DNA of 35,724 nucleotides. Source: a virus. The stretch lies in IMG/VR virus record IMGVR_UViG_3300023174_000017, positions 1 through 35,724 of that record; one strand, given 5' to 3'. Shown here in pieces: positions 601-35,724 of the stretch (the first letter of the stretch is position 1; every line of letters begins with the position of its first letter). The notes under the pieces were generated by a model, which did no database searches, had not been told where the DNA came from, and worked only from the letters and a program-made list of their open reading frames with translations. Made by a program: the position numbers and the translations under genes.

Positions 601-1563
601 ATGAGCTTTATTTCTGGTGGCACGACCATTCGTGCAGACATCAACCAAGCGTTGATCGAAGCCCCCGCACAGATCGGTATGATCGGTGCAGACATTATGC
701 CTCTCCTGCCAGTATCGGCAAAGAGCGGTGTCTACCTAAAAGTGCAGACAGCCGATGCTGACCTCTTGAACGCTGATGCGGCCAAGCGGAACGCTGGTGC
801 TGAATACGCTCGTGCGATTCGGAAATTCACCTCCGATACCTACGACTGCCAAGAGACCGGCCTCGAGGAATTGCTTGACGATTCCTTCCGTTCGGATGCT
901 TCACGCTTCTTCGCAATCGAGGCAGAAACAGCAAAGTTCTTGCTCCGTCAAGTTAAGCTCTCCCACGAAAAGCGGGTGGCTGATTTGCTCTGGGCAACAA
1001 CGACTCCCTTCACCACGGCTGACTTAAGCCCTACGGCTTCATACATCGAAGGCAACTTGTCTAGCATCAACGCCCCAGCGGATGTTGCGGCTGGCAAATT
1101 GGCTCTCAATAAGCTGGGTTACGAGGCCAATGCGGTGATTATGTCTGCCAATGTGTACGAGAGAGTTCGTCGTACCACCCTATTGCAAAATCAATTCTAC
1201 GGAGTTGTTTCTAATACTGGTGGCCGTTTGCTCGACGAAGCACAGATCGCACAAGCGTTTGGTGTGGATAAAGTGTATGTTGGCCGTGCGGCTTACAACA
1301 CAGCGAACAAGAACAAAGCCTACTCTGGCTCGTTCATTGTTCCCGATACCAAGATTGTTGTTGCTAATGTTGCTGGCGGTCAGTTCACCGCTGGTGGATT
1401 AGGTCGCACCTTGGTCTGGTCGGAAGATGCCCCCGGTGGTTTCGTCTCCGAGAGCTATCGTGACGAAGCTCGTCGCTCCAATGTTCTCCGTGTTCGTATG
1501 AACACAGCGGAGAAAGTCATTGATGCGAACGCCGCCGTCCGTATCACCACGACCTACAGCTAA
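601..1563 (+). CDS. Major capsid protein (HK97 fold)
   Basis: A 320-residue protein directly after protease and decoration genes. Features typical of phage major capsid proteins: an N-terminal segment with ADIMPLLPV, an acidic helix region with EETGLEE-like spacing (QETGLEELLDD), a basic KLSHEKRVADLLW segment, a P-domain-like stretch with NAVIMSANVYERVRR, and a C-terminal part with GFVSESYRDEARRSNVLRVR. The length matches single-domain HK97-fold capsid proteins. It is followed at once by a strong terminator, as expected for an abundantly expressed gene. The spacer before it is a run of AAC repeats (563-600). Confidence 0.85.
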   Translation: MSFISGGTTIRADINQALIEAPAQIGMIGADIMPLLPVSAKSGVYLKVQTADADLLNADAAKRNAGAEYARAIRKFTSDTYDCQETGLEELLDDSFRSDASRFFAIEAETAKFLLRQVKLSHEKRVADLLWATTTPFTTADLSPTASYIEGNLSSINAPADVAAGKLALNKLGYEANAVIMSANVYERVRRTTLLQNQFYGVVSNTGGRLLDEAQIAQAFGVDKVYVGRAAYNTANKNKAYSGSFIVPDTKIVVANVAGGQFTAGGLGRTLVWSEDAPGGFVSESYRDEARRSNVLRVRMNTAEKVIDANAAVRITTTYS

Positions 1564-2491: not shown

Positions 2492-4144
2492 GTGAATCAT
2501 CCTATTTCAGTCTATCTCATCGCTGGTAATGAAGAAGAATACATTGAGCGTTGCCTCAAGTCGTTTGCCCCTATCGCAAAAGAAATTGTTGTATGTATTT
2601 CTAGGGGGTCAGCTACGCCAGACAAGACCGAGGAAATTGCTAGTGGGCTTGGAGCGAAAATCGTTCATTACCAGAATAAAAGAACTGACTGGAATCACAT
2701 AGACGATTTTGCCACGGCAAGGAACACGGCTCTTGAGGCTTGCTCAAGTGAGTGGTGTTTATGGGTCGATGCTGACGATGTGATGGCCGAGGATGGGGCG
2801 AAGGTTGTCGAGGAGGCTATTGACCTTGCCATTCAAAAAGACGCTCACCTAGTGGCGTTGAAATACAATGTGGACAATGCCGGACTTATTCCCCTCCGAG
2901 AAGAAATCTCGAAGCGAGGCACTTGTAGCTGGAAGAACCGAGTTCACGAAATGCTTGTTTGCAAAGAGCCAAACAAGACGATTGGGGTGGACAAGATTTT
3001 CCGAATCCATAAGCCCCACGGATACAAGCCAAGGAGTGCAGAGAGGAACTTAAACATCTTGGCCGATACGCTTGCCCCAGCCGCCAACTCCCTTTACTAC
3101 CAAGCCCAAGAGTATTTTCTTTCTGGGCAAATCGAAAAGTGCATCGATTCAAGTATGCGAGCCTTGGCATTCCCAGAGCTAGAGGACACGCTTCGCTACG
3201 ATGTGCTTTGCAATTTGGGCAGATCAGTTCCAGAAAATGATAGGCTTTCTTATCTTGGACAAGCCGTAGCTCTGCAACCAGACCGACGAGAGGCTTATTT
3301 CTATATTGCAAATCATTGGTCTGGCAAGGGAAACTGGATTAAGACTTATGGAGCTATTAGGTCTTGTATGACTTTGCATAGGCCAAAGTCTCACTACTGG
3401 AATCTTGTTGAGGCAATTTATAATTGGCAAGCGATGGACTTATACGAGACGGCTTCGGTGTGTGTGGGAGAAGCTGGTGAAGTGGAAAAGATTAAGAAGA
3501 TGCGACCAGCCCCTAGAATCTCAATCGTTCACGCCACAAGAGGCAGACCGCAAGTAGCTTGGCAGAGGCGATGGATGTGGCTTTCTTTAGCCCAGAAGCC
3601 CCTAGAAATTGAATGGTTATTTATGGTAGATCACGACGACCCCACCGACTACACCCCCCACCAAGCTATTAGGTGCAATCCGGGTGGGATAATTAACGCT
3701 TGGAACGCTGGGGCAAAAATAGCCAAAGGGGACATTGTTATTCAAATGAGCGATGATTGGACACCTCCCCGCCATTGGGATGCCCTAATTTCGACCGCGA
3801 TTGGGGATACAACGCAAGAGAAAGTGCTGGCAGTATCAGATGGCCTCCGAACCGACAAACTGCTTTGTATGGCGATTCTGACGCAATCTAGGCTCAAGAA
3901 GCAGGGGCATCTATTCCACCCCGACTATCAAGAGTCAGACGGCATCTATTCGGACAATGAGTTCACGGATAGAGCCTATGCAGAACAAGCCGTAATTGAG
4001 GCTAGACATATCCAGTTTAAGCACGATAACCCCTTATTCAATGGTGGGCAACCAGACGAGCAACTAAAGAACCACAACAAGCCAGAGTTTTATGAGAAAG
4101 GAAAAGCAATCTATGAAAAACGCAAAACAAATAATTGGATGTAG
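2492..4144 (+). CDS. Two-domain glycosyltransferase (GT-A/GT2-type plus second GT-like domain)
   Basis: A 550-residue cytoplasmic protein with a GTG start, the first start after an in-frame TGA. Residues 1-110 form a GT2-like domain: the opening ISVYLIAGNEEEYIERCL is the classic nucleotide-sugar-binding start, and WVDADD (about 91-96) is the DxD metal-binding motif. Residues about 190-330 look helical and repeat-like (TPR style: ALAFPELEDTLRYDVLCNLG and following). A second GT-A-like domain begins near 345 with ISIVHATRGRP and has VDHDD (about 373) and MSDDW. It probably transfers two sugars or acts on a glycan chain. The acceptor (virion protein, phage DNA or host glycan) is unknown. It opens the accessory cassette. 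Confidence 0.8.
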   Translation: MNHPISVYLIAGNEEEYIERCLKSFAPIAKEIVVCISRGSATPDKTEEIASGLGAKIVHYQNKRTDWNHIDDFATARNTALEACSSEWCLWVDADDVMAEDGAKVVEEAIDLAIQKDAHLVALKYNVDNAGLIPLREEISKRGTCSWKNRVHEMLVCKEPNKTIGVDKIFRIHKPHGYKPRSAERNLNILADTLAPAANSLYYQAQEYFLSGQIEKCIDSSMRALAFPELEDTLRYDVLCNLGRSVPENDRLSYLGQAVALQPDRREAYFYIANHWSGKGNWIKTYGAIRSCMTLHRPKSHYWNLVEAIYNWQAMDLYETASVCVGEAGEVEKIKKMRPAPRISIVHATRGRPQVAWQRRWMWLSLAQKPLEIEWLFMVDHDDPTDYTPHQAIRCNPGGIINAWNAGAKIAKGDIVIQMSDDWTPPRHWDALISTAIGDTTQEKVLAVSDGLRTDKLLCMAILTQSRLKKQGHLFHPDYQESDGIYSDNEFTDRAYAEQAVIEARHIQFKHDNPLFNGGQPDEQLKNHNKPEFYEKGKAIYEKRKTNNWM

Positions 4145-10254: not shown

Positions 10255-11103
10255 ATGACCTCTGGAATTGCAACCAACATAGACGAGCTAAAGGACGCTT
10301 TGCTTGTATATCAGAATGTGGTTCGAGTAGAGGCAACAAAAGCACTTTATAATAAGATGGGAGATGTTGCTTTTGCGGCGGCTGAAAATACATATTTCAC
10401 TACGCCAGATAAAATTAGAAAATCAATTTCTGGCCTACCAATTAAGAATGATTCTGGCATTAGGCGTTATGGGGATACTAAATATGTCGGTCAATATAAG
10501 CTAATAAATTGGATTAGAAAGCAAAGGGGGCAGATTCCCTTGGGTGGTAGCAAATTCAGAAAAGTCTCTACATATAAAGTTCAGCCAGAGAGCCTAGTTG
10601 TTCAAGAAAGAATTACTAGGAGAAGAAACCAAGTGCGGTCAAAGGGGCCGTCGATGTCCTCTGGATATTTTATGGATGGCAAATACAAGGCGTTTATTGC
10701 TAGGAGAATACGATCTGCAAAATTCTTGAGAATAGGCTGGGCCGCCGCCGCCAATGCGTTTGGCAAAAGTTTCACTAGAGGCGACTTTGGAACGGCAACT
10801 CTAGCAAGGATTACATCGACTGGCATAGCTGGTGGAGATGTAAAGCAAATGGGCAAAGACCTAACAGAATTTACTATTTTCAACGGGGCTGGTCAATATG
10901 ACGCTAGGAAAAACAAGCCATACCCACAACGCCCCGCATCAGATAAAAAGAGGGCTTATGACATCTTGCAGGAAGGACTGCAAAAGGGAATTAACACGGT
11001 TCTATATGACTCAAAAAGAGGCATCATCCCCTATCTATCCGAAAGATATGATAGAACCCAAAAGGCGATTAAGGTTCTTGGAAGCAAGCTGAAGGTGATT
11101 TGA
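10255..11103 (+). CDS. Tail completion/neck-type protein (putative)
   Basis: A 282-residue very basic protein (many Lys and Arg, e.g. TRRRNQVRSKGPSMSSGYF and IARRIRSAKFLRIGWAAAANAFG). The opening helix (NIDELKDALLVYQNVVRVEATKAL) and the basic middle recall HK97 gp10-type tail completion or neck proteins, though these are usually shorter and lie before the tube gene. TTAACA lies 13 nt before its ATG. It sits between the GT chaperone and the tape measure candidate. Function is inferred from position. Confidence 0.4.
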   Translation: MTSGIATNIDELKDALLVYQNVVRVEATKALYNKMGDVAFAAAENTYFTTPDKIRKSISGLPIKNDSGIRRYGDTKYVGQYKLINWIRKQRGQIPLGGSKFRKVSTYKVQPESLVVQERITRRRNQVRSKGPSMSSGYFMDGKYKAFIARRIRSAKFLRIGWAAAANAFGKSFTRGDFGTATLARITSTGIAGGDVKQMGKDLTEFTIFNGAGQYDARKNKPYPQRPASDKKRAYDILQEGLQKGINTVLYDSKRGIIPYLSERYDRTQKAIKVLGSKLKVI

Positions 11104-11118
11104 TAAGGCAATAGGTAT

Positions 11119-12081
11119 ATGCTCCCGCTAATTCTCAAGGTTATAGCTGACACAAAAGACGCAAAGTTCACCCCAGTTACAAGGGAAATGGACGGATTGC
11201 GTATGTCCTCACAAAAGACCGGGCAAGCAGTTAGGCAGTTGGCAAATATATTTAGTGATTCTCGTGACCCCGTAGTTGCCTTGGCTGGCTCTGTGGATGG
11301 CCTAACTAGAGCCTTTAGGCTTGGGCTTGGTGCTACTGTGGCAGTTGTTGGAATTACTGAGGCAATTAAGGTTTTTGTCTCTAATTCCGAGAAGATGAAC
11401 GCTATCACGGAAATGATAAATGCAAGCATCAAAGACTTTCAATCATCAGTTGGATTAGTCAATTTTGAGGGGGCAACAAGTCAAGTTATAAAACTTTCGG
11501 ATGCTTTACAAAAGGCTAGAGAACAAATGCCCGCCTCTGGTGGTGGTGGCTTTTTAGATGAGATTTTGACTAGGACTGGAAAGAGCATATCTGATATTGC
11601 ACTATCAAAAGAAAAGGCAAATCTAGCCATAACAGAAGCACAAACAGCACAACAACAAGCCAAATATGCGGCTGAAACTGCTCTTAAAAAAGAGAATGAA
11701 CTTTCTGCACTTCGCCTAATCAATGCAGAAGAAGCAAAGCGGGTCGAGATACAACAGAAATACGATAAAGAGGTTGAATCAGCTAGGAGACAAGGATTGT
11801 TGACTCCGGGTATAGAGGCTGGATTAGCCAGAAGAAGGGACATCGCATTGGCTGGAATAGATGCCCCAGCACAACAACAAGCAAAAGAGCAAAGGATACA
11901 GAATTACCAAGCCGCACTATCTGGTGCTGGCGTTCCACCGGTATCTATGCCTCAGTCCCCATCGGCGGGGATATTCTCTGGCATTGTCGATGAAGTTAGG
12001 GTGATTAAACAATATGTTGCAACTATGACAGACTTAATGGAAAAACGCCTTGGCGTGCCAATCTTGAGGTCAGCATCGTGA
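11119..12081 (+). CDS. Tape measure protein candidate (short)
   Basis: A 320-residue helical protein. Near residues 72-92 there is one strong hydrophobic segment (FRLGLGATVAVVGITEAIKVFV), as in tape measure proteins, and residues about 150-230 are coiled-coil-like and Ala/Gln/Glu-rich (EAQTAQQQAKYAAETALKKE). It immediately follows the G/GT region as H does in lambda. It is very short compared with lambda H (853 residues), implying a tail of roughly one third of lambda's length if length scaling holds. TTGATA lies 13 nt before the ATG. Confidence 0.6.
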   Translation: MLPLILKVIADTKDAKFTPVTREMDGLRMSSQKTGQAVRQLANIFSDSRDPVVALAGSVDGLTRAFRLGLGATVAVVGITEAIKVFVSNSEKMNAITEMINASIKDFQSSVGLVNFEGATSQVIKLSDALQKAREQMPASGGGGFLDEILTRTGKSISDIALSKEKANLAITEAQTAQQQAKYAAETALKKENELSALRLINAEEAKRVEIQQKYDKEVESARRQGLLTPGIEAGLARRRDIALAGIDAPAQQQAKEQRIQNYQAALSGAGVPPVSMPQSPSAGIFSGIVDEVRVIKQYVATMTDLMEKRLGVPILRSAS

Positions 12082-12905
12082 GTGCAACCTTAGTCGGGAA
12101 GCCAGCCAGCGGTCAGAAGGTTTTGCGAAAAACCAATATGACTACCGAGATCGACGGCCTTACACTTCTTTCTGAGACTTACACAATCCGCACGGCTGAT
12201 GTGGCGACACTTGAGCCAGACCGCAACACCCTCCACAGCGTCTTTGTCGATTCATCCTACACGCCAAAATACACACGGATGGCCGTGGAGACGACAAGGG
12301 TAGAGCCTTTAGACGGCGACCTATCTTCTTTAGTAGTGAACTATGTAGGGATGACTACCGCCAGCGGGCTACCAGCCGCTTATGTGACGGCGGTTGGGCA
12401 AGCAGGGGCGGGCGTGTTTGGGGCAGACGCATCCATCGTCGCTAAGTATATCACAACAGACAGCTATTTTGACCTACTGAAAGGCGGGGTGTTGGCGTTA
12501 GACTTTACCAACAGCCAAATCATCATACCCACAAAACGCCTAATGCCCGCTTCAATCAATGGGACGATAATGCCTCCTAACCCAAGACAACGGGAATATC
12601 GCAGAAACTCAACACGATCCGAGATTGAGGCCGCACAAGGTGCCGCTATATCGGAAGCAAATGCAAGGGCTGGCAGATATGGTAATATCACGATTGGATC
12701 GATTGTGCCGTACCCCGTAACGATTGAATGGATTTATGCGGGATATGTCCAAAGCTCAATTTCATTCACTCGCCGTGGATTATTCAATCAGATCGAGGAG
12801 CAGTTCACAGAATACTTCCGTGGTACAGATGCCTTCTATACTGGCGACGGCATTCCTAATGTTAAAAAGATCGAGGCTTACTCTGCTGTGAATTTCGTAT
12901 TCTAA
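12078..12905 (+). CDS. Distal tail or tail-tip protein (putative)
   Basis: A 275-residue protein with a GTG start overlapping the tape measure stop by GTGA. Mostly beta with Thr, Val and Ile strands (YTIRTADVATL, SLVVNYVGMTT). A helical insertion (RSEIEAAQGAAISEANARAG) precedes a strand pattern TITIEW-like (YPVTIEWIYAGYVQSSISF). Its position after the tape measure suits distal tail or baseplate hub components. No family recognised. Confidence 0.5.
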   Translation: MSATLVGKPASGQKVLRKTNMTTEIDGLTLLSETYTIRTADVATLEPDRNTLHSVFVDSSYTPKYTRMAVETTRVEPLDGDLSSLVVNYVGMTTASGLPAAYVTAVGQAGAGVFGADASIVAKYITTDSYFDLLKGGVLALDFTNSQIIIPTKRLMPASINGTIMPPNPRQREYRRNSTRSEIEAAQGAAISEANARAGRYGNITIGSIVPYPVTIEWIYAGYVQSSISFTRRGLFNQIEEQFTEYFRGTDAFYTGDGIPNVKKIEAYSAVNFVF

Positions 12906-13096
12906 TGAAAACTAAACCGCTTCGCCCTATTCAAGCCACCGCTGACGGCATCGGAATCAGCGTGGAATATATGAATGAGATTATCAATCGAATTGAGGAC
13001 TTGGTCGAAACGGCCAACGCACAAAAGCCAGTAGCGGGGAATAATGTGAAAATATCTTATCTCAATACGGGGGCTGTGATTAACGCTGTGCAGTAA
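12905..13096 (+). CDS. Small tail-tip adaptor, paralogous to next protein's N-terminus
   Basis: A 63-residue protein whose ATG overlaps the upstream stop and whose stop overlaps the next ATG. The arrangement LRPIQATADGIGISVEYMNEIINRIE then KPVAGNNVKISYLNTG matches the first 60 residues of the next protein (IRPIRDGKILDVNLINHIIQRTE, then KMVAGLNIFVEQAGNG). A small domain was thus duplicated: once free-standing and once at the head of the repeat protein. It could be an assembly adaptor. Confidence 0.55.
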   Translation: MKTKPLRPIQATADGIGISVEYMNEIINRIEDLVETANAQKPVAGNNVKISYLNTGAVINAVQ

Positions 13097-14163
13097 TGCG
13101 AATCGTCCCGCCCATCCGTCCGATCCGTGACGGCAAGATCCTCGATGTTAATTTAATCAATCACATAATCCAACGCACCGAGTACGGTGCAGAACTGCTT
13201 GCGAGATATAAGATGGTCGCTGGCTTGAATATATTTGTGGAGCAAGCGGGTAACGGACTAGGCGTATCATATTTAACCGCACTTGCTGGCGGGGCTGGCA
13301 ATCCAGTTCAATCGGGAAGTGCGGGCACGGGTAACGGCGGAGCTGGAACTGGAACGGGTGGGGCGGGGACGGGAACGGGTGGAGCTGGAACGCCAAAGCC
13401 GGCTACTCAGCCGTACAGAATTGCTGGAACTTATGGATTAGGCGGGAGAAATAGAATTTTTATTTATGACGGGTCAACATATACAGATATATATTTTGGA
13501 AATGATAAGCAGATTTTGGGTGTAGGATGGAAAATTGGCATCAGTGGCCTAAATCTTGTCGGGAGTTATCTTTTCAATGGGGATGTGACATCCTTTTTTT
13601 ATAATGGTTTAATAGAGACAGAATTTCGCGTGCCTAATTCCAGGAGAACTGACGCTTTCGACATTGATGGTTCAAATATTTGTGGAAGTTATAATCCGCA
13701 AACTGGGCGTGGGGAAGGCTTTTTTTATAATGGCTCAACATATACGGACTTAATTTTTCCCCCTAATTTTTCCACACTTGCTTATGGAGTTGACGGCTCA
13801 AATGTTGTTGGATCGTATTTAAGTGGGAGTTTCAGAGGTTTTCTTTATAATGGCTCAACATTTACAGATATATTTGTACCCGGATCTTCCTCTACACTGG
13901 CTCATGGCATTGATGGTTCAAATATTGTTGGAAGGTATGCTCTAAACGGAGTCACTAGAGGTTTTCTTTATAACGGCTCAACATTCGTAGATATATTTGT
14001 ACCCGGCTCTTCTTTAACATCTGCTTACGGGATTATTGGTTCAAATATTGTTGGATATTATACTCTAAATGGAGTCAATAGAGGTTTTCTTTATAATGGT
14101 ACAACATATACCGATATATTTGTGCCCGGCTCTTCTAATACGGTAGCCTTTGGCATCGACTAA
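13096..14163 (+). CDS. Tail-tip/receptor-binding protein with HAF-like repeat propeller
   Basis: A 355-residue protein. Residues 1-62 are the adaptor domain shared with the preceding protein. Residues about 64-100 are a Gly/Thr/Ala linker (GTGNGGAGTGTGGAG and so on). From residue 107 there are six units of about 41 residues with the pattern GFLYNGSTFTDIFVPGSS, then a variable stretch, then GIDGSNIVGxYxLNGVxR. This is the HAF extracellular repeat style, expected to build a beta-propeller. The last unit lacks its final strand, but residues 107-120 (RIAGTYGLGGRNR) supply one, as in velcro closure. Probably the host-recognition tip. Confidence 0.65.
   Translation: MRIVPPIRPIRDGKILDVNLINHIIQRTEYGAELLARYKMVAGLNIFVEQAGNGLGVSYLTALAGGAGNPVQSGSAGTGNGGAGTGTGGAGTGTGGAGTPKPATQPYRIAGTYGLGGRNRIFIYDGSTYTDIYFGNDKQILGVGWKIGISGLNLVGSYLFNGDVTSFFYNGLIETEFRVPNSRRTDAFDIDGSNICGSYNPQTGRGEGFFYNGSTYTDLIFPPNFSTLAYGVDGSNVVGSYLSGSFRGFLYNGSTFTDIFVPGSSSTLAHGIDGSNIVGRYALNGVTRGFLYNGSTFVDIFVPGSSLTSAYGIIGSNIVGYYTLNGVNRGFLYNGTTYTDIFVPGSSNTVAFGID
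13285..13395 (+). repeat. Gly/Thr-rich short tandem repeat linker
   Basis: Low-complexity G-rich DNA with repeated GGAACGGG/GGAGCTGG-like blocks encoding a Gly-Thr-Gly-Gly-Ala linker. It is a candidate for length variation by slippage. Confidence 0.7.
13414..14160 (+). repeat. Six HAF-like repeats of about 123 bp each
   Basis: Near-identical DNA blocks recur at about 123-base steps in the second half, e.g. GAGGTTTTCTTTATAATGG in the units near 13835, 13957 and 14080, each followed by CAACATnTAnnGATATATTTGT. Early units are more diverged than late ones. High DNA identity among the last three suggests recent duplication or gene conversion. Confidence 0.75.
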
Positions 14164-16173: not shown

Positions 16174-16384
16174 TTTAATTTGCGGGTGTGCAACCACCCG
16201 CCCCTACGACATTGGGCAAACGCCGCACCAAGACTCAATCTCGGACTTCATTATGCGATGGGACAAACTCGACCGAGCAAAAGCCAGCCCCCAAGAATAC
16301 CGAGAATTGTATGCCCAGACGCTCAAGGCGTTATCTCGATCAATGGAGGAAACAGAACGATGCAAGTCGAGGCTTGACCAGTAA
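16106..16384 (+). CDS. Outer-membrane lipoprotein, o-spanin-like (Rz1-like, putative)
   Basis: A 92-residue protein with a signal sequence (MKKLLTTAACVIRKWILGFI) and a lipobox LICGC, cysteine 28 being the expected lipidated residue. The mature part (about 64 residues) is charged and helical (ISDFIMRWDKLDRAKASPQE and YRELYAQTLKALSRSMEETE). It begins inside the upstream membrane protein gene and its TAA overlaps the endolysin ATG. With its partner it would bridge inner and outer membranes and fuse them after peptidoglycan is cut. Confidence 0.6.
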   Translation: MKKLLTTAACVIRKWILGFIAGSLICGCATTRPYDIGQTPHQDSISDFIMRWDKLDRAKASPQEYRELYAQTLKALSRSMEETERCKSRLDQ

Positions 16385-16890
16385 TGACGATTCGAGAGGC
16401 GGTGGAGAGATCAAGAAGCCACATCGAAAAGTGTGAGCCTAGTTTCGGGAAGAGGGTAGGGGCTTGGTACTCGGAGTTGATGTCCAAAAAGATTCCAGTT
16501 TTAATTTACTGTTCAACCAGAACGCCCCAAGAACAAGAGGAGCTATACGCCCAAGGACGGACAAAGGCAGGGAGGAAAGTTACAAACGCTCGTGGAATAC
16601 CCCCGCAATCGCTCCACATTGACCAAGGTAAAGGCTCTCACGCAATAGACTATGTACCCCTATCCCGCACCCCGACTGGCGATCTATTGGCCTCGTGGGA
16701 CGATGACCAAACCTATTCTATCTGCCAGAAGATTGCACAGAAGCACCAGCTACGGCATTTGGATTGGGAGCAACCCCATCTTGAGGATGCAACAATCTCT
16801 GGGTGGAGGGAATTAGTATCCCCACAAAAACAAGAGGTGAATAATCAAAAAGTTTCGCTAGTAAGCAAGAGGCCGTGGTCTAGTCGTTAA
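16384..16890 (+). CDS. Endolysin, peptidase M15 family
   Basis: A 168-residue protein. The block RTPQEQEELYAQGRTKAGRKVTNARG followed by SLH (His78), GSHAIDY (His86, Asp89) and PHLE (His132) matches the zinc-site layout of M15 (VanY/L-Ala-D-Glu or D-Ala-D-Ala) endolysins. The usual SxHxxGxAxD motif is stretched here by an insertion (QGK), a small oddity. It would cleave the peptide part of peptidoglycan. No signal peptide, so it needs the holin for release. The last 25 residues are a basic, poorly conserved tail. Confidence 0.8.
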   Translation: MTIREAVERSRSHIEKCEPSFGKRVGAWYSELMSKKIPVLIYCSTRTPQEQEELYAQGRTKAGRKVTNARGIPPQSLHIDQGKGSHAIDYVPLSRTPTGDLLASWDDDQTYSICQKIAQKHQLRHLDWEQPHLEDATISGWRELVSPQKQEVNNQKVSLVSKRPWSSR

Positions 16891-26260: not shown

Positions 26261-27439
26261 ATGAAATATCCTTGTCTATTAACCAAAAAAATCTCCGAGA
26301 TATCGGGGGCAAAATATAATCCTAGAAAAATATCCGATGAGGCGATGGGTCGATTGACCAAGAGCCTAGCGGAGTTCGGGAACATCCAACCTATAACTTG
26401 GAATGTGCGAACTGGGAATGTTGTCGGAGGCCACCAGAGGCTCAAGGTCTACAAGGCTATGGGCAAAACCGAGGTCGAGGTGTGGGCGGTCGATTTAGAT
26501 GAGCAGAAGGAGAAGGCGGCCAACATAGCCCTCAACAAGTTGAGCGGGGAGTTCGATATGCCGATGCTCAAAGACATCCTAGAGGAAATCGATACTGGCG
26601 ATCTGGATATGGAAATTACTGGGTTCGGGATGGATGAGATTGCTTTGATGATGGAGGACGCACACCCAGAAGTAACCGAGGACGAAGTACCAGAAGTTCC
26701 AGTTGATGCGATTACCAAGCTGGGCGACTTGTGGCTTCTTGGGGAACACAGATTGCTTTGCGGTGATTCTGCGAGCATAAAAGACGCAGAAAAGCTAATG
26801 AATGGGGAACTTGCTGATATGGTTCTTACCGACCCGCCCTATGGCGTAAGCTATACTGGCAAAACCAAGGACGCATTAAAAATTGAGAATGATGACCTAT
26901 CAGAATCAGACCTAATTGAAAAATGCAAGAGCTGGTTCGATGTGGCCGAGTCTATGTCTAGGGATGGGGCATACTGGATCGCAACCGTCCCGTCGGGACG
27001 GTTGCATAGTGTGTTCTTGAACGATTGGAAAGGCCGAGAAATATTAAGACAAATACTGGTATGGAATAAAGATTCTATGGTTATGGGTCATAGTGAATAC
27101 CACTACAAACACGAACCCATACTTTTTGGATGGAAACCCGGAGAAAGATTAAAAAACAAAGATAGAACAAAAACAACCGTGTGGGACTTTAAAAGACCAA
27201 AGGCATCAAGAGAACACCCGACAATGAAGCCAATCGAGATGTGGTGTTATGCGATGGGCAATCACACGAAGAATGGAGACCTCCTTTACGAACCATTCTG
27301 CGGTTCTGGAACAACTATAATCGCCGCCGAGCAATTAGGTCGCAAATGCTACGGAATGGAAATCAGCCCCAACTACTGCGATGTGATTGTGAAGCGATGG
27401 GAAAACCTTACCGGCAAAAAGGCCACGCTTGCCAAATGA
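26261..27439 (+). CDS. ParB-like/DNA adenine (or N4-cytosine) methyltransferase fusion
   Basis: A 392-residue protein. Residues 1-120 form a ParB/Srx-like domain (KYNPRKISDEAMGRLTKS, IQPITW, and VVGGHQRLKVY at 55-65). Residues about 150-392 form a beta-class amino-methyltransferase: DPPYGVSY at 191 (motif IV) precedes EPFCGSGTT at 344 (motif I), and GMEIS follows. The same fusion is common in phages and prophages and protects phage DNA from restriction or marks it. The gene holds a perfect inverted repeat at 26981-27005. Confidence 0.85.
   Translation: MKYPCLLTKKISEISGAKYNPRKISDEAMGRLTKSLAEFGNIQPITWNVRTGNVVGGHQRLKVYKAMGKTEVEVWAVDLDEQKEKAANIALNKLSGEFDMPMLKDILEEIDTGDLDMEITGFGMDEIALMMEDAHPEVTEDEVPEVPVDAITKLGDLWLLGEHRLLCGDSASIKDAEKLMNGELADMVLTDPPYGVSYTGKTKDALKIENDDLSESDLIEKCKSWFDVAESMSRDGAYWIATVPSGRLHSVFLNDWKGREILRQILVWNKDSMVMGHSEYHYKHEPILFGWKPGERLKNKDRTKTTVWDFKRPKASREHPTMKPIEMWCYAMGNHTKNGDLLYEPFCGSGTTIIAAEQLGRKCYGMEISPNYCDVIVKRWENLTGKKATLAK
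26981..27005. repeat. Perfect 12-bp inverted repeat with 1-bp centre
   Basis: GCAACCGTCCCG and its exact reverse complement flank a single T, inside the ParB-methyltransferase coding sequence. No T-run follows, so it is not a standard terminator. Confidence 0.8.
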
Positions 27440-28438: not shown

Positions 28439-28740
28439 AACGCTCTCCACTTAAACGCAAAACCCCACTCAAACGAGGCGGGAAACTACGCCGAGTATCT
28501 GCAAAGAGAAAAGGCCAGAACGAAGTCTATAAAGATGTTCGAGAGAAGTTCCTAACAAACAATCCAGTCTGCCAAGTGTGCCGATGCAAGATGGCGAGTC
28601 AAGTTCACCATAGGCGAGGAAGGTTTGGGGATAGGCTCAATGAGGTAGAGTTTTTCTTGGCGGTGTGCTTTGAGTGCCATCATCAAATTCATATGAACCC
28701 AGCTTGGGCATACGCAAAAGATTATCTGGTTAAGAGATGA
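28435..28740 (+). CDS. HNH endonuclease next to the terminase
   Basis: A 101-residue protein from an ATG overlapping the upstream TGA. A basic N-terminus (KRSPLKRKTPLKRGGKLRR) precedes an HNH domain: CQVCRCK, VHHRRGRFGD, then CFECHHQIH. The cysteine pairs form the structural zinc site and the histidines the catalytic centre. HNH proteins directly upstream of TerL assist DNA packaging/cos cleavage in many lambda- and HK97-like phages. Its stop overlaps the TerL ATG. Confidence 0.85.
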   Translation: MKRSPLKRKTPLKRGGKLRRVSAKRKGQNEVYKDVREKFLTNNPVCQVCRCKMASQVHHRRGRFGDRLNEVEFFLAVCFECHHQIHMNPAWAYAKDYLVKR

Positions 28741-30527
28741 ACCAGATTGATGAGGCCAAGAACTTCGCTCGCCTTTTGTTTGAGCCAAGAGAACAACTCT
28801 CGATTCCAGAATGGGCAGAGAAAAACCTCACCCTTTCAGCTAGGGTAACAAACATACCCGGAGCGTACTCAACAACCCTCACGCCCTATGTCCGTGAACC
28901 CCTAGAGGCTTTTGGCGATGATTCAATTCGTAGGGTGGTGCTGGTATGGGGGGCACAAACAAGCAAGACCACAACGATTCTAGCTGGCCTAGCGTATCGA
29001 ATAGCAGAGCGACCTTGCCCCGCCTTGTGGGTGATGCCGAGCGAACATTTAGCCAGATCATTCACGGAAACTAGGTGGTTGCCGATGATTGACGATTGCC
29101 CAGCACTCGCTAAGGAAAAGCCCGACAATACAGATAAAATAAAGATACTCGAACAGCACTTCAAACGATGCTCGGTCTGGTGGGCTGGTACTAGCCCCTC
29201 TGCTCTTTCTAGTCGCTCGATTGCGTTGTTGTGTATGGATGAGGTAGACAAGTTCCCAGAGCAAGCGGGTTCGGGTCGAGAGGCAAACCCAGTTCAATTA
29301 GCAGAGGCCAGAGTAAGCACCTACCCAAACCATCTCATCATAGCAACCAGCACACCGACAACTGCCGACTCAATTATTTGGTCTGAATGGCAGAAGGGCG
29401 ATATGCGTTTCTACTTCGTTCCTTGTCCTCATTGTGGGCATAAGCAGAAGCTGGTTTGGGGGCAAGTGAAGTGGGATGAGTCAGCAAAGATTGAGGATGG
29501 CGTTTATGATTTTAAGCTGGTGAAATCCTCAACCTACTACGAGTGCGAGGGGTGCAAAGAAAAGATTACAGACGGACAGAAAACCAAGATGTTGAGAGAG
29601 GGCGAGTGGAGGGCAACCAATCTAAAGGGCGAACCAGCCAGACGCTCCTATCATCTCAACGGCCTATATGCCCCTTGGGTATCCTTCGGAAGTCTAGCGG
29701 TGAAGTTTCTGCAAGATAAGCACAATGGAATTATAGGGCTACAAGACTTTGTGAACCGAGTTCTAGCCGAGCCTTGGATGGAACACGAATCAGAGAAGAT
29801 GGAAATCGTGGCGGGTGACTACAAGATGGGTGAAGTTAGGGTAAATGAGAAGCTGATTATGGCTTGTGATATTCAAGAGGCGGGGGGCTTCCACGCTTGG
29901 TGCGTTGTTAGGGCTTGGGATATTGAGGGCAGATCACGGCTAGTATGGGCTGGAAGGCTTGAGACTTGGGGAGACATTAAGGCCAAGGCAGAGGAGTTTG
30001 GAGTTGAGTCAAAGTGCGTTTTCTGCGATTCGGGCGATCAAACCAGAGATGTTTATTATAATTGCTGTAAAAATGGCTGGATGGCATTGGTGGGTTCAGA
30101 CCGCACCAGCTTCTCCGAGATTGTGGGCGAGCAAAAACTACAACGCCCCTATGCTAGAATTGCCAATGGTGACCCCTTCAGCGGTAAGGCGGTTCAATCG
30201 AAGGCAGGGTGGAAGTGGAAGTTCTGCCCAGTTTGGAGGTGGTCGAACCCATCCATCAAAGACATCCTCTCCAATCTAATCAAAGAACCCGGTTACATAG
30301 CTTTGGATACCCCAGATGTGTGGCGAGTTCATATCGAGGCAGAGGTGAAGGTGCGAGTGAAAAACCCTATGACTGGAAGGGAAAGGCTTGTGTGGAAGCA
30401 AGTCGGGAAGCATAATCACTTAATGGATTGCGAGTGTATGAACATCGTGGGTGCGGCCTTGTATGGGCGATTGAAAGTCTCGCCCGCAAGTTTGACAGAA
30501 AGTGAGTTTGATAATGGCGAAGGGTGA
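28737..30527 (+). CDS. Terminase large subunit (GpA-like packaging ATPase/nuclease)
   Basis: A 596-residue protein, typical length for the lambda gpA family. ATPase domain: degenerate Walker A WGAQTSKTT (71-79) and Walker B LLCMDEVD (164-171). Zinc-ribbon-like CPHC (230-233) and CEGC (270-273) cysteine pairs follow. Nuclease acidic residues: ACDIQ (Asp378), FCDSGD (Asp431) and HLMDCE (Asp564). It powers DNA translocation into the prohead and cuts concatemers. Gene order HNH-TerL-gpW-portal is classic. Its GTG/ATG neighbour begins inside its 3' end. Confidence 0.93.
   Translation: MNQIDEAKNFARLLFEPREQLSIPEWAEKNLTLSARVTNIPGAYSTTLTPYVREPLEAFGDDSIRRVVLVWGAQTSKTTTILAGLAYRIAERPCPALWVMPSEHLARSFTETRWLPMIDDCPALAKEKPDNTDKIKILEQHFKRCSVWWAGTSPSALSSRSIALLCMDEVDKFPEQAGSGREANPVQLAEARVSTYPNHLIIATSTPTTADSIIWSEWQKGDMRFYFVPCPHCGHKQKLVWGQVKWDESAKIEDGVYDFKLVKSSTYYECEGCKEKITDGQKTKMLREGEWRATNLKGEPARRSYHLNGLYAPWVSFGSLAVKFLQDKHNGIIGLQDFVNRVLAEPWMEHESEKMEIVAGDYKMGEVRVNEKLIMACDIQEAGGFHAWCVVRAWDIEGRSRLVWAGRLETWGDIKAKAEEFGVESKCVFCDSGDQTRDVYYNCCKNGWMALVGSDRTSFSEIVGEQKLQRPYARIANGDPFSGKAVQSKAGWKWKFCPVWRWSNPSIKDILSNLIKEPGYIALDTPDVWRVHIEAEVKVRVKNPMTGRERLVWKQVGKHNHLMDCECMNIVGAALYGRLKVSPASLTESEFDNGEG
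30492..30497 (+). promoter_or_regulatory. TTGACA motif, 16 nt before the ATG at 30514
   Basis: TTGACA within the last codons of TerL, 16 nt before the ATG of the gpW-like gene. It could be a chance occurrence of Leu-Thr codons, but it fits the spacing of the other copies. Confidence 0.3.
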
Positions 30528-30750
30528 TTTCATCGGGCTACCCCTCACCACCCTAACTTCTCTGCGTGATAAATATATCACTTGCCTCGAAGCAATAGCG
30601 GTGGCGGGTTCAAGCTATTCGATAGCTGGACGCTCTTTCTCAAGGGCGAATCTGGGTGAGGTGAGAGATACGATTGCGGAACTTACACTAGCCATTCAGC
30701 AAGCGACTGGTACTAGGGTTCGCACAACCTACGCAAACTTTGGCTCGTGA
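30514..30750 (+). CDS. Head-tail joining protein, gpW-like
   Basis: A 78-residue protein from ATG 30514 (in-frame GTG 30502 is an alternative). SIAGRSFSRANLGEVRDTIAELTLAIQ resembles the central strand-helix part of gpW, and its length and place between TerL and portal are exactly those of gpW. It would extend the portal channel. Its stop overlaps the GTG/TG of the portal start region (30747). Confidence 0.7.
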   Translation: MAKGDFIGLPLTTLTSLRDKYITCLEAIAVAGSSYSIAGRSFSRANLGEVRDTIAELTLAIQQATGTRVRTTYANFGS

Positions 30751-33700
30751 AAAAAGCCTCTCTCAATCTGATCGACAAGGCGATTGCCTTTGTAAATCCT
30801 CAAGGTGCAGTTGATAGGCTTGTTGCTCGTCAAAAGATTAAGAACTTCGAGTATGATGCGGTAAAGTATTCAAGGCAACGCAAGGGGCCGAGTTCGCTTT
30901 CTGGTGCGGAAGATTATCGTTCTAACTATGACCGAGTGGAGCTGATGAAAAGGGCGAGGGATTTGGCAGAGAATGTTGGCCTAGTTCGCTCCATTCTAAT
31001 GAAGTTCGCCAGTCACACCGCCGCAAACATTTCCTACCAAGCCCGAACCGAGAATCCAGAAGTCAATACAGATGTTGAGATGTATTGGGCAGAGTGGTTC
31101 GACAAATGCGACATCACCACAAGGCATACTGGCTCAACACTTATGCAAGTAGCGATGATGTCGATGTTGCGAGATGGAGATTTTCTTTTTGTTCTCGTGC
31201 GAGATTCTGATGGCAACTTAAAGATACAAGGCATTGAGGGTGATAGACTTGGCGACCCATACAAAGTTTATACAAGCTCGGAGTTAATTGGTGGAATCCA
31301 TATCGATCAAAAGACTGGCTCGCCCACGGCTTATGATGTTTATAGCCGAACGATTGGCGATATGTATTCGTTCCAAGCAACGATTCCATCAAGCCAAGCC
31401 TTTCACCTATTCGACCCACTTCGCATTGACCAATACCGAGGAATCTCTGCTTTTCATACTGCCATCAATGATGCAACGGATATTTATGAGATAGTTAATT
31501 TTGAGAAGATGTCGGCCAAGGTTGCTTCTAGCCAAAGTGCAATTATAAAGAGGAATAACAACAATGCCTCCGATCTCTCCTCGCTCACAAACGACCAAGA
31601 CATTAACGGAAGTCCAATCAAACTAGAAGCGATTGAGTCTGGTAAAATCTCTTACCTAGAGCCGGGCGAGGACATTGTGTTCCCAGATGGGCCGAGCCGT
31701 CCCTCTGGTGCGTTCGCAGAGTTCCACAAGATTCTTTTGAGGAACATTTGCTTGGGTGTGGGCATCCCTTACAGCTTCGCCGTAGACCCTTCCGCTATGA
31801 GTGGCCCGACAGCCCGACTAGAGATGCAACAAGCGGGGCGCACCTTCCGCAGATACCAAAAGCTCCTAGATGATAAAGTTCTTCGACCAATTAAGAACAT
31901 CGTTATTGCCGATGGCGTAGCAAGAGGATTGATTGAAAAGAATGTTGGGAGCAGAACGACTAGAGGCATTTTCAATTTTGGGGCTAATGTCTCTATTGAT
32001 TTAGGCAGAGAATCCGCTTCAGCAATCTCCGAGTTTAAGACTGGTCTCCGAACCGCCGCCGACATCTACGCCGAGCGCGGACAAGACTTTGAAAGTGCTA
32101 TGAGGCAGAGGGCTATTGAGGCCAAGCTGGTGAAGGATTTGGCTGGGGAATACGAAGTTTCGGCAGATACAATTTCCGACATCGCCGCAGAGGGATTGAC
32201 CAGAGATTCACAAAAAGCACAAGCAACCACACCAGAAGGCGAACAGAAGCCCGCTGGACAACCTTCGGACGAGGATATGCTTGGCGGTGCTTCGCTCAAT
32301 GGGGCACAAGTGGCTTCGCTCATCAATGTTATCAATGCGGTTGCTATGGGTGCGGTTTCCAAGGAGGGTGCAGTATCTATCATCACCGCCGCCTTCCCGA
32401 CCATCAGCCCAGACCAAGCAAGGGCAATCATCGCTGGGGTCAATGTTGGCACAACCATCCCGACCACCAAAGAAGAGAAACAGCAGATTGCAAAAGACCA
32501 AGGCGAGGATACTTCAGGAGGCTCAACACCCCCAGCCCCGGAACCTACCACGCCCCCGACCGCCCCCGCTGGCACTTCTCAAAAAAAAAGTAATTTAGAG
32601 ATTTTGGAAAGCCTCGACCCCGCATCTATCAAGATGCTGATTGAGGGGATGATGGGCGGGATTGAGCTGGCAAAATACGATGGGATTGATTTTACCCCAC
32701 CACAAGGGGCTAGGGATGCCGCTAAACGAGCATTGGATGTGCGGGAAGGCAAACCAGCAAGCCAACGAGGGATGACCCAAGTAGGCATCGCTAGGGCGAG
32801 GGATTTAATCAATGGCGTTAAGCTATCCCCAGATACAGCCAGACGAATGAAAGCCTTTTTTGATCGGCACGAAGTCGATAAGAAGGGAAGCACTTGGGAC
32901 GAGCAAGGCAAGGGCTGGCAAGCGTGGAATGGATGGGGTGGCGATGCTGGTTACGCTTGGGCAAGGAAAGTAGTTGGACAGATGGAAGCAAAGGACAAGA
33001 AAACAGAGTTCGTTGCTGGCAGAGATTGTGGACAAGATGAGGGTGGAACTTTTGGGCCAGATAATAAATGTGCAGTAGGCTACGGCAGACCCCCACTCAA
33101 GGGAGGCTACACGCCAACCCGACCCGGTGGGAAATTCCCCAAGGATTACAAAAGGCCAACATCTCAAGACGAAAGGGGCAAAAGGCCATCTCCACCAGTT
33201 GCAAAACCCGGATTGCCGCCTCCACCACCGCCAACTGGGAAAGCTAAAAAACAAACAGAATCCGAAAAAAGGGTTTCAAAAATAAATGATAAATTTAGAA
33301 AAGATGGCATTCAAGCATTGCTTCCAGAAAATCCTAGAAGAGCAGAAGAAATAGAAAAGTCGTATAATAATCTAAAATCAAGGGGTTACGAAATCCCGCC
33401 GCCAGATCAAGTATTTACTATGGATTTGAAAAAAAGTTATGGCGGAGATTATGAGGGCGTATATGCAGTTGCCACAAGAAGCAAGGCTGGGCAAGAGCAA
33501 ATGATTTTTAATTCAGCTAAATTCAATAGAGGAGATGATAGTGTTGTTTTGGATTTAGAGTCAGATGTAAGAAGAAATTGGCTTTCAACAACAGATGTAT
33601 TTGCTCACGAATATGCACATAATGCTCACATAAAGTCGATTGGAGAGAAAGACGCAGATATTTATAGGGTTTGGAAATTTGGTAAAATAACCTCTGTAAC

Positions 33701-33842
33701 AGCATCCAAGGTTAGTAAATATGCTGGTAAAAACGCATTAGAGTTTGTTGCTGAAACTTTTGCTGGGCACGCAAATGGAAAGAAGTATGATAAGGATGTA
33801 TATAAACTATATGAGTATTTCAAAGGGCCGAAACTAAAATGA
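30747..33842 (+). CDS. Portal protein fused to C-terminal HEXXH metalloprotease-like domain
   Basis: A 1031-residue protein from a GTG overlapping the gpW stop. Residues 1 to about 490 are a lambda-type portal (ARDLAENVGLVRSILMKFASH, SMLRDGDFLFVL, AGRTFRRYQKLLDDKVLRPI). A Pro/Thr-rich linker (about 590-611) leads to an A9 run. Residues about 630-760 hold a phage module with RHEVDKKG and WNGWGGDAGYAW. A proline-rich linker (about 800-840) precedes the last domain, with HEYAH (954-958) and EFVAETFAG (Glu999, Glu1003), a gluzincin-type zinc site. From about 33240 the DNA becomes AT-rich, as if recently acquired. Portals are normally 500-600 residues long. Confidence 0.8.
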   Translation: MKKASLNLIDKAIAFVNPQGAVDRLVARQKIKNFEYDAVKYSRQRKGPSSLSGAEDYRSNYDRVELMKRARDLAENVGLVRSILMKFASHTAANISYQARTENPEVNTDVEMYWAEWFDKCDITTRHTGSTLMQVAMMSMLRDGDFLFVLVRDSDGNLKIQGIEGDRLGDPYKVYTSSELIGGIHIDQKTGSPTAYDVYSRTIGDMYSFQATIPSSQAFHLFDPLRIDQYRGISAFHTAINDATDIYEIVNFEKMSAKVASSQSAIIKRNNNNASDLSSLTNDQDINGSPIKLEAIESGKISYLEPGEDIVFPDGPSRPSGAFAEFHKILLRNICLGVGIPYSFAVDPSAMSGPTARLEMQQAGRTFRRYQKLLDDKVLRPIKNIVIADGVARGLIEKNVGSRTTRGIFNFGANVSIDLGRESASAISEFKTGLRTAADIYAERGQDFESAMRQRAIEAKLVKDLAGEYEVSADTISDIAAEGLTRDSQKAQATTPEGEQKPAGQPSDEDMLGGASLNGAQVASLINVINAVAMGAVSKEGAVSIITAAFPTISPDQARAIIAGVNVGTTIPTTKEEKQQIAKDQGEDTSGGSTPPAPEPTTPPTAPAGTSQKKSNLEILESLDPASIKMLIEGMMGGIELAKYDGIDFTPPQGARDAAKRALDVREGKPASQRGMTQVGIARARDLINGVKLSPDTARRMKAFFDRHEVDKKGSTWDEQGKGWQAWNGWGGDAGYAWARKVVGQMEAKDKKTEFVAGRDCGQDEGGTFGPDNKCAVGYGRPPLKGGYTPTRPGGKFPKDYKRPTSQDERGKRPSPPVAKPGLPPPPPPTGKAKKQTESEKRVSKINDKFRKDGIQALLPENPRRAEEIEKSYNNLKSRGYEIPPPDQVFTMDLKKSYGGDYEGVYAVATRSKAGQEQMIFNSAKFNRGDDSVVLDLESDVRRNWLSTTDVFAHEYAHNAHIKSIGEKDADIYRVWKFGKITSVTASKVSKYAGKNALEFVAETFAGHANGKKYDKDVYKLYEYFKGPKLK
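32581..32589 (+). other. A9 slippery run in the portal linker with an immediate -1 stop
   Basis: Codons here are CAA AAA AAA AGT. A -1 slip reads AAG then UAA (32591-32593) and yields a 615-residue portal without the downstream module and protease domain. The phase A AAA AAA is a valid slippery heptamer. No strong stimulator is evident. Confidence 0.45.
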
Positions 33843-34733: not shown

Positions 34734-35724
34734 ATGCCTTTACCCCTACCTTCCGCAGACGAATCAGAGCAAGACTTTGTATCCCGCTTTATGGGTGACG
34801 AAGAAGCAATATCCAAGTTTCCAGACGAAACGCAGAGGGCGGCGGTTGCCTATTCAACCTATCGGGACGAGGAGATGGAGGAAATGGAACTAGGCGGTGT
34901 GAGCATTTTGGAGGTGGGAGAGGCTAAAGGACACGACCTTTTCGTGGATAAAACAAGCCTAGAGACTGCTCTCAAACTTATGGGTAAGGCAAAGAATGGT
35001 GTGAAGGTTAAGATGAACCACGGAAGCGGATTAGATGCAGTAGTAGGCTTCGCAAGAAACCCCCGCATTGAAGGGGATAGGCTGGTGGCCGACCTTCGCT
35101 TGCTCCGCAATTCGCCCCACTACGGCCTAATCAAAGAGATGGCATCCGAAGCCCCCGATCAGTTCGGAGTTTCATTGGCCTTTGTGAACGAGTCCGAGAC
35201 CATCAATGGAAAGGATTACATTCGCCCCCAGAGCATCGCCTCTGCTGATTTAGTTTCCAGCCCAGCCGCCACGAATGGATTATTCGAGGAGATGGTGAAG
35301 TTTATGGAAAAACTCGGTTATGTGCAGGGAGGGAAATCAATTCCGGCAGTAACTAAAGAAGCCGTGGAGGAAGCTCCACTTGACAAAAAGGACAAAACAA
35401 ATATGGAAAACAATTATTCTAAAGATATCGAGGATATCAAGGTTCGCTTGGCGGCCATTGAAGATTCGATGAAACCCAAAGAAGAAGTAAAAAAAGAGGA
35501 GATGGCCTCCGAGAAGCCCTCCGAGACTCCCGCCCCTGCTCCCGAAATCTCAGTTGAGGTTGAACCCTCCGAAGATAAAAAGGAAGAGATGAGCGAAGTT
35601 GTGAAGAAAGTTCTAACCGAGTTCGGCATTAAGCCCATCTCGGCTTCGCCAGTTGTTGAAGCACCAGCGAAGGTTGAACCTAAAACTTTTGAAGCACTCG
35701 TGGCCGCCCACAGCGATTACGGAA
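34734..35724 (+). CDS. Prohead protease with scaffold-like C-terminus (5' part; continues at base 94)
   Basis: Across the circular join this is a 359-residue protein whose last codons are at 94-182. Residues about 90-200 look like a U35/S78-type prohead maturation protease: a histidine in MNHGSG, then a stretch reading VVGFARNP, a serine in FGVSLAF, and the typical ADLVSSPAAT end of the domain. The C-terminal third is highly charged (many E and K) with Pro/Ala, as expected of a scaffold tail fused to the protease. This protease would trim the capsid precursor and itself during head maturation. It sits between the portal and capsid genes, as in lambda- and HK97-like phages. A TTGACA motif lies 14 nt before the ATG, with only a weak AGG as ribosome site. 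Confidence 0.85.
   Translation, partial: MPLPLPSADESEQDFVSRFMGDEEAISKFPDETQRAAVAYSTYRDEEMEEMELGGVSILEVGEAKGHDLFVDKTSLETALKLMGKAKNGVKVKMNHGSGLDAVVGFARNPRIEGDRLVADLRLLRNSPHYGLIKEMASEAPDQFGVSLAFVNESETINGKDYIRPQSIASADLVSSPAATNGLFEEMVKFMEKLGYVQGGKSIPAVTKEAVEEAPLDKKDKTNMENNYSKDIEDIKVRLAAIEDSMKPKEEVKKEEMASEKPSETPAPAPEISVEVEPSEDKKEEMSEVVKKVLTEFGIKPISASPVVEAPAKVEPKTFEALVAAHSDYG
35632..35724. repeat. Right copy of 93-bp terminal direct repeat
   Basis: Exact copy of bases 1-93. It marks the circular join within the prohead protease/scaffold gene. Confidence 0.95.

Follow-up and report, generated by a model that had tools for sequence, protein, structure and literature searches.

A putative exchangeable receptor-binding tip built on a predicted six-bladed HAF-like propeller in an IMG/VR phage

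We analyzed a stretch of 35,724 bases from the virus record IMGVR_UViG_3300023174_000017 (hereafter the window), in which one gene likely encodes an exchangeable adhesin or receptor-binding protein of a phage whose tail is probably short: an anchored, closed ring of six HAF-like blades, whose specificity would change both by cassette exchange and by copying of blades. In the arrangement that we propose, a conserved domain of about 66 residues would fix the protein in the tail, and a Gly-rich linker would display a closed six-bladed HAF-like propeller. The ring would be closed by three N-terminal strands (residues 109-132) together with one C-terminal strand (residues 348-354), which is probably the innermost of its blade, and loops on one face of the propeller would probably bind a glycan or protein of the cell surface. 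Specificity could then be altered along two routes, namely by swapping the whole tip as a cassette at the border of the anchor, or by copying blades and rapidly changing amino acids within the ring, the blade number staying at six presumably because the ring must close. Given that related viruses reshape or swap the tip, recognition of the host cell is most likely its task. The features on which this reading builds are listed in Table 1.

Table 1. Coordinates of the propeller gene, its parts, and other genes of the window
Feature	Position	Strand	Details
Propeller gene	13096-14163	+	ATG start, 355 aa
N-terminal anchor domain, residues 1-66	13096..13293	+	Predicted helices, then beta-hairpin (low confidence)
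Flexible linker, residues 67-108	13294..13419	+	Gly/Ala/Thr-rich hexapeptide repeats
Six-bladed beta-propeller (predicted), residues 109-355, 24 strands	13420..14163	+	Profile, AlphaFold2, Foldseek/VIA
Closing blade (predicted), N-terminal part: strands 109-115, 118-124, 129-132	13420..13491	+	DSSP on model; v31Pizza6 alignment
Closing blade (predicted), C-terminal part: strand 348-354 (NTVAFGI)	14137..14157	+	DSSP on model; just before chain end
275-aa upstream gene	12078..12905	+	Conserved; source of the reference tree for tip exchange
63-aa gene, free-standing paralogue of the anchor domain	12905..13096	+	1-base overlap with start of propeller gene
Tail-fiber-like protein, 542 aa	14186..15814	+	Downstream neighbor; C-terminal domain like tailspike C-terminal domains and H-type lectin
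Major head protein	601-1563		
Endolysin-like gene	16384-16890		
GpA-type terminase	28737-30527		
Lambda-family portal, 1031 aa	30747-33842		

The repeats were delimited with a unit profile of 41 positions that was built solely from the units of other phages. This profile recognized exactly six units in the window protein, at residues 109-153, 154-194, 195-236, 237-276, 277-317 and 318-355 (45, 41, 42, 40, 41 and 38 aa), with i-Evalues of 1e-10 to 1e-22, compared with an E-value of 1.5e-3 for the best of 200 shuffles; residues 1-108 are non-repeat. The first unit opens at profile position 1 with IAGTYGLGGRNR, which aligns to the start of all other units. The last unit covers positions 1-38 of the 41 and stops at GID, without the hairpin and the IVG strand that would follow. 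The profile thereby bears out what the preliminary description had read from the DNA, i.e., six repeats of about 41 residues, the final one ending at GID and missing the strand that opens the repeat region. No significant hit to the window protein was obtained from Pfam, PHROGs or NCBIfam, and sequence searches of solved structures, with the single sequence as well as with a profile, gave no match.

The N-terminus of the protein is the anchor domain itself, and no hydrophobic signal stretch was seen in it by eye. This domain is common to 23 loci and is kept among phages with differing tips; among 50,697 annotated phage records it found only chance-level matches, and no relative was recognized outside this phage group. 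The free-standing 63-aa paralogue (hhalign probability 95.4, E 1.9e-8 against the anchor) is found 5' of every tip type. The linker that follows the anchor has a GC content of 65% and a pLDDT below 50; in the alignment it is long only in the window and two relatives (L002 and L003), and short in the others.

Beta-propellers consist of four-stranded blades, with 4 to 12 blades per ring. Using 14 aligned phage proteins as input, AlphaFold2 predicted strands in six sets of four within residues 109-354, with pLDDT values mostly of 83-97 in the propeller, 60-69 around residues 131-150, and below 50 for nearly all of residues 1-104. The best match among solved structures by VIA was TolB (Z 24.7, 247 aligned residues, 2.8 A), and in Foldseek the fucose lectins RSL and AAL were leading, with E-values of about 2e-7. 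TolB, Ralstonia RSL and Aleuria AAL are six-bladed, as is the predicted ring of the window, and share no significant sequence similarity with it. The fold matches also bear on the idea that the propeller is an enzyme, such as a lyase or hydrolase that acts on a glycan of the host surface polysaccharide: many propellers are glycosidases, and sialidases are among the VIA matches, albeit with Z-scores below that of TolB. However, no Pfam enzyme family was matched, and the blades are partly homogenized, without positional identity (see below), which is easier to reconcile with a binding site that recurs around the ring than with one active site. We therefore consider a catalytic role very improbable.

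The same model indicates how the predicted ring would be closed. Each unit contributes strands A (IVGYYTL), B (RGFLYN), C (TDIF) and D (TVAFGI); according to DSSP on the model, the D-A, A-B and B-C turns comprise two to four residues, whereas the C-D link comprises about six, so that the blades most likely run D-A-B-C from the center outwards. This is also the order of TolB-type blades. Within the Pizza6 family (VIA Z-scores of 16-19), the designed 3-1 permutant v31Pizza6 is collinear with the protein over residues 107-355 (Z 19.0), whereas ordinary Pizza6 (3ww9) could be aligned over residues 126-355 only (Z 16.5). With strands A, B and C at the start of the chain and D at its end, the predicted arrangement corresponds to what PMC8458387 calls a "velcro 3-1" closure, the contact being deduced from the order of the strands and the alignment of the folds. 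The closed ring with velcro that had been anticipated in the preliminary description is supported by the predicted structure, by its comparison with known folds and by the conservation of the cut point.

To find further proteins of this build, IMG/VR was scanned with the protein, the alignment and a repeat-only alignment. This yielded 13 further distinct proteins, all from uncultured phages. Although some pairs of rings are only about 30% identical, every one of the 14 proteins has six units, starts at strand A and stops after strand D. Two of the loci (L005 and L006), which come from different samples, are identical over 10 kb. Such repeats were also seen on another viral contig, L070, in a protein that begins with a signal-peptide-like stretch and is cut where the cellular proteins described below are cut; a terminase-like gene lies next to it on the opposite strand, and it looks like a host-type gene beside a prophage. 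None of the papers searched dealt with HAF repeats in phages.

The window carries a 93-bp direct terminal repeat (1-93 and 35632-35724), and the ORF at 34734 runs across the joint of the two ends, from which we conclude that it is probably complete (about 35.6 kb), and circularized or terminally redundant, while the record is classed as one without end repeats. In the 50,697 annotated phage records, no relatives were found of the whole propeller protein, the upstream gene, the downstream fiber or the major head protein, and those of the terminase are distant only. None of the genes between 4 and 16 kb received a clear tail annotation by sequence. The location of the propeller protein in the tail is instead suggested by gene order and by the predicted fold of the downstream protein, of which the C-terminal domain was modeled confidently and the remainder poorly. 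In VIA, residues 457-542 of this protein matched Kp32gp38 (Z 8.3), LKA1 gp49 (7.1), Pam1 (5.9) and Helix aspersa agglutinin (6.3); the best rows are all phage tailspikes or a lectin, with modest Z-scores. The C-terminal half of this protein is variable as well, and its relatives repeatedly carry one or the other of no fewer than two types of last domain, a GEGLTFFGHVVAADQVHVDA type and a NDQHYRDVVVTGAAVNDL type.

This neighborhood could also be read in another way, with the propeller protein serving as a decoration of the virion or as a general adhesion protein (for example one that is bound to the head and sticks to surface glycans) rather than as a specific receptor binder. No surrounding tail gene could be identified by sequence, lectin and propeller folds are found in non-specific adhesins as well, and the adjoining fiber may itself be the main receptor binder. 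Nevertheless, the tailspike-like fiber gene directly adjoins the propeller or tip gene in all loci, and the turnover of cassettes at this gene is typical of host-range determinants, which makes such a role unlikely.

The exchange of cassettes was apparent from ten further phage loci, which have the same anchor and neighboring genes, but other C-terminal modules. In one of these (L035, 4998-5795), the anchor is followed by an L-type (legume-like) lectin tip, which matched PF18483 with an E-value of 1.4e-13 while remaining below the gathering score. The upstream protein, which was present with 50-98% identity in all 24 loci tested, served as the reference. Phages with differing tips can be nearly identical in this protein (L028/L005, 99%; L032/L025, 97%; L029/L008, 95%), and in such close pairs the DNA is about 88-92% similar up to nucleotides 196-217 of the gene, at the border between anchor and tip, loses its similarity beyond that point, and regains it at the stop codon. 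When the tips were labeled as propeller or other, the tree of the upstream protein required seven changes of label, at least three of which are forced by well supported branches, and the labels were no more clustered than shuffled ones. The build of the gene is the one expected of receptor-binding proteins, with a conserved part for attachment joined to a variable or exchangeable part for binding.

These exchanges also weigh on a further alternative, in which the propeller has a structural role or acts as a gate in the tail, comparable to the T7 gp12 nozzle with its seven-bladed propeller. Short-tailed phages do have velcro-closed propellers at this place (PMC6702177), the window genome contains no gene of the size of a tape measure, which suggests a short tail, and among viral proteins the fold weakly matches one that is annotated as P22 Gp10. 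The T7 protein resembles the one proposed here in carrying a velcro propeller in a short phage tail (PMC6702177), but its propeller is central, acts as a structural gate and shares a large nozzle protein with three further domains, whereas the propeller of the window is terminal, variable and swapped. A nozzle of the T7 type is a conserved structural channel protein; here, nothing else in the neighborhood is as poorly conserved as the propeller, and near-identical phages carry unrelated modules in place of the entire domain. Such free swapping is hard to reconcile with an essential gate, and the natural swaps already imply that phages with swapped tips are viable. We regard the chance of a nozzle function as very small. 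The receptor-binding tip proposed in the preliminary description, in turn, is well supported as a putative assignment by the cassette exchange, the tail-fiber-like neighbor and the hypervariability of the propeller.

This hypervariability is most evident from a comparison of the window with its relative L002, in which the two preceding proteins are 97-100% identical, the anchor 92% and the first part of the following protein 97%, and the propeller only 57%. Fourfold sites show 65-81% agreement throughout. The amino acids of the propeller have thus changed much faster, rather than merely being older. In the same vein, three loci (L009, L011 and L023) have anchors that are 100% identical, with rings that are 40-50% alike. 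Within the rings, the units retain almost no memory of their position: between proteins, units at the same position are 46% alike and those at other positions 45%, compared with 51% for units within one protein, with the pair L024 and L025 as an exception. In three proteins, blades were found that are recent copies of one another, with nucleotide identities ranging over 89-96% (up to 96% for units 1 and 6 of L009, 94% for units 2 and 3 of L005, and 93% for units 2 and 4 of L004). Copied blades are about as alike as the sister phages L004 and L005 are across the region (91.6%). This copying is in line with published work in which single blades are regarded as the source of a continual re-amplification of propellers (PMC9218822).

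A diversity-generating retroelement was considered as a source of the variation and rejected, as no RVT_1 match, and hence no reverse transcriptase, was found in the whole, probably complete, record. Diversification that is specific to one face of the ring was likewise dropped as phage-specific evidence: the contrast between top and bottom was the same for phage and cellular units (2.57/1.15 versus 2.60/1.25 bits), and as the cellular relatives vary just as much on the variable face, the pattern is not specific to the conflict between phage and host. We tentatively suggest, at somewhat less than an even chance, that the phages diversify independently of a reverse transcriptase, through a permuted 3-1 adhesin ring in which blades are copied within the gene (units 1 and 6 included), closure keeps the number at six, and whole rings are exchanged.

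With the repeats alone as query, bacterial genomes yielded 24 loci, from Verrucomicrobiota, Planctomycetota, Syntrophaceae, Acidobacteria, Deltaproteobacteria and others. The complete cellular proteins have a signal-peptide-like start, and many have a PEP-CTERM end; most contain six units, and one (L040) contains seven. One deltaproteobacterial protein (L048, 4716-7544) combines a HAF-like propeller of six units with RHS-type repeats in a fusion. According to the unit profile, the cellular rings start at about position 20 (strand C), continue through five full units, and end at about position 15 (strand B). They are thus cut two strands away from the phage ring (1-3 versus 3-1), which amounts to a circular permutation.

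The preliminary description had called the repeats HAF-like. The HAF family (NCBIfam TIGR02913, with a curated cut-off of 22.65 bits) overlaps with Pfam DUF3466 (PF11949). TIGR02913 found no match in the window protein up to an E-value of 10, and scored 15.6 bits, under the cut-off, against one phage relative (L005). Conversely, the profile of phage units matched HAF-positive proteins (L042, L049, L052, L057 and L058) with E-values of 2e-54 to 3e-26. Several of the cellular relatives score as HAF, whereas the closest ones (L036 and L037), like the phage proteins, do not; all of these have a shorter D-A hairpin. HAF/PEP-CTERM proteins of Verrucomicrobiota, Planctomycetota and other groups have the same repeat of about 41 residues, mostly six of them each, with a hairpin of NDSGQ where phage units have DGSN. 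They are, however, cellular and extracellular proteins with a signal-peptide-like start, in place of which the phage protein has its anchor domain. Judging from sequence comparison, the phage repeats are most accurately named a HAF-like subgroup: homology to HAF-positive secreted bacterial proteins holds, with the qualification that the phage proteins fall below the HAF cut-off and belong to a subgroup with a shorter hairpin.

The relatives being secreted bacterial proteins, the earlier suggestion of a borrowed host surface module is plausible as far as the borrowing is concerned, although the phage ring is circularly permuted relative to the cellular examples, beyond what a simple graft from host to phage would give. 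In the most direct form of this suggestion, the phage would have acquired the propeller from the very bacterium that it infects, in which it was a secreted PEP-CTERM protein. Relatives of the secreted type that are up to 53% identical occur in Syntrophaceae, planctomycete and verrucomicrobial genomes, and the GC content of the propeller DNA is 37.6%, compared with 47.2% for the genome, which places it in the lowest 0.7% of segments of the same size; this drop is present in most relatives and absent in L004. Against direct acquisition, the cut point differs in the cellular examples, and the phage could equally have amplified a single acquired blade. The lack of a match to the upstream gene in 387 genomes of the phylum of L044 lacks a positive control and shows nothing. 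Taken together, we find direct acquisition from the host rather doubtful.

Propellers that bind receptors are already known from the phages phi11, PRD1 and phiKZ and from eCIS fibers. The propellers of Staphylococcus phage phi11 gp45 (five-bladed), PRD1 P2 (a distorted five-bladed ring) and phiKZ gp131C (seven-bladed) are likewise known or likely host-recognition domains (PMC4901313). Their blade numbers differ from that of the window ring, no sequence similarity to the window was found, and for none of the three did we find a description of such cassette exchange. What is new here is the circular permutation, the constant number of six, the border of exchange and the lectin alternative. Receptor-binding propellers of phages have so far been few and unrelated cases; that a family of secreted bacterial repeats with a seemingly little-described function turns up here as a modular phage tip suggests a binding role for this family as well. 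The natural permutation and the fixed blade count also offer a clean test of how repeats can diversify fast without loss of the ring, and the exact borders of the cassette make the exchange of tips directly testable.

Several other genes of the window deserve mention. Directly 3' of the head genes, 2492-4144 encodes a protein of 550 aa with two glycosyltransferase-like parts (phrog_13126 and phrog_14945). At 26261-27439, a ParB-like nuclease domain is apparently fused to a DNA methyltransferase (phrog_498), and the C-terminal end of the portal protein (30747-33842) weakly matches a peptidase family, so that it may be a portal-protease fusion. Finally, the cluster to which the propeller gene belongs includes two partially conserved ORFs at 10255-12081 (282 and 320 aa), possibly a second locus of exchange: only the last 14-16% of the ORF at 11119-12081 is matched in L002 and L008, and L011 has both ORFs (282 and 320 aa).
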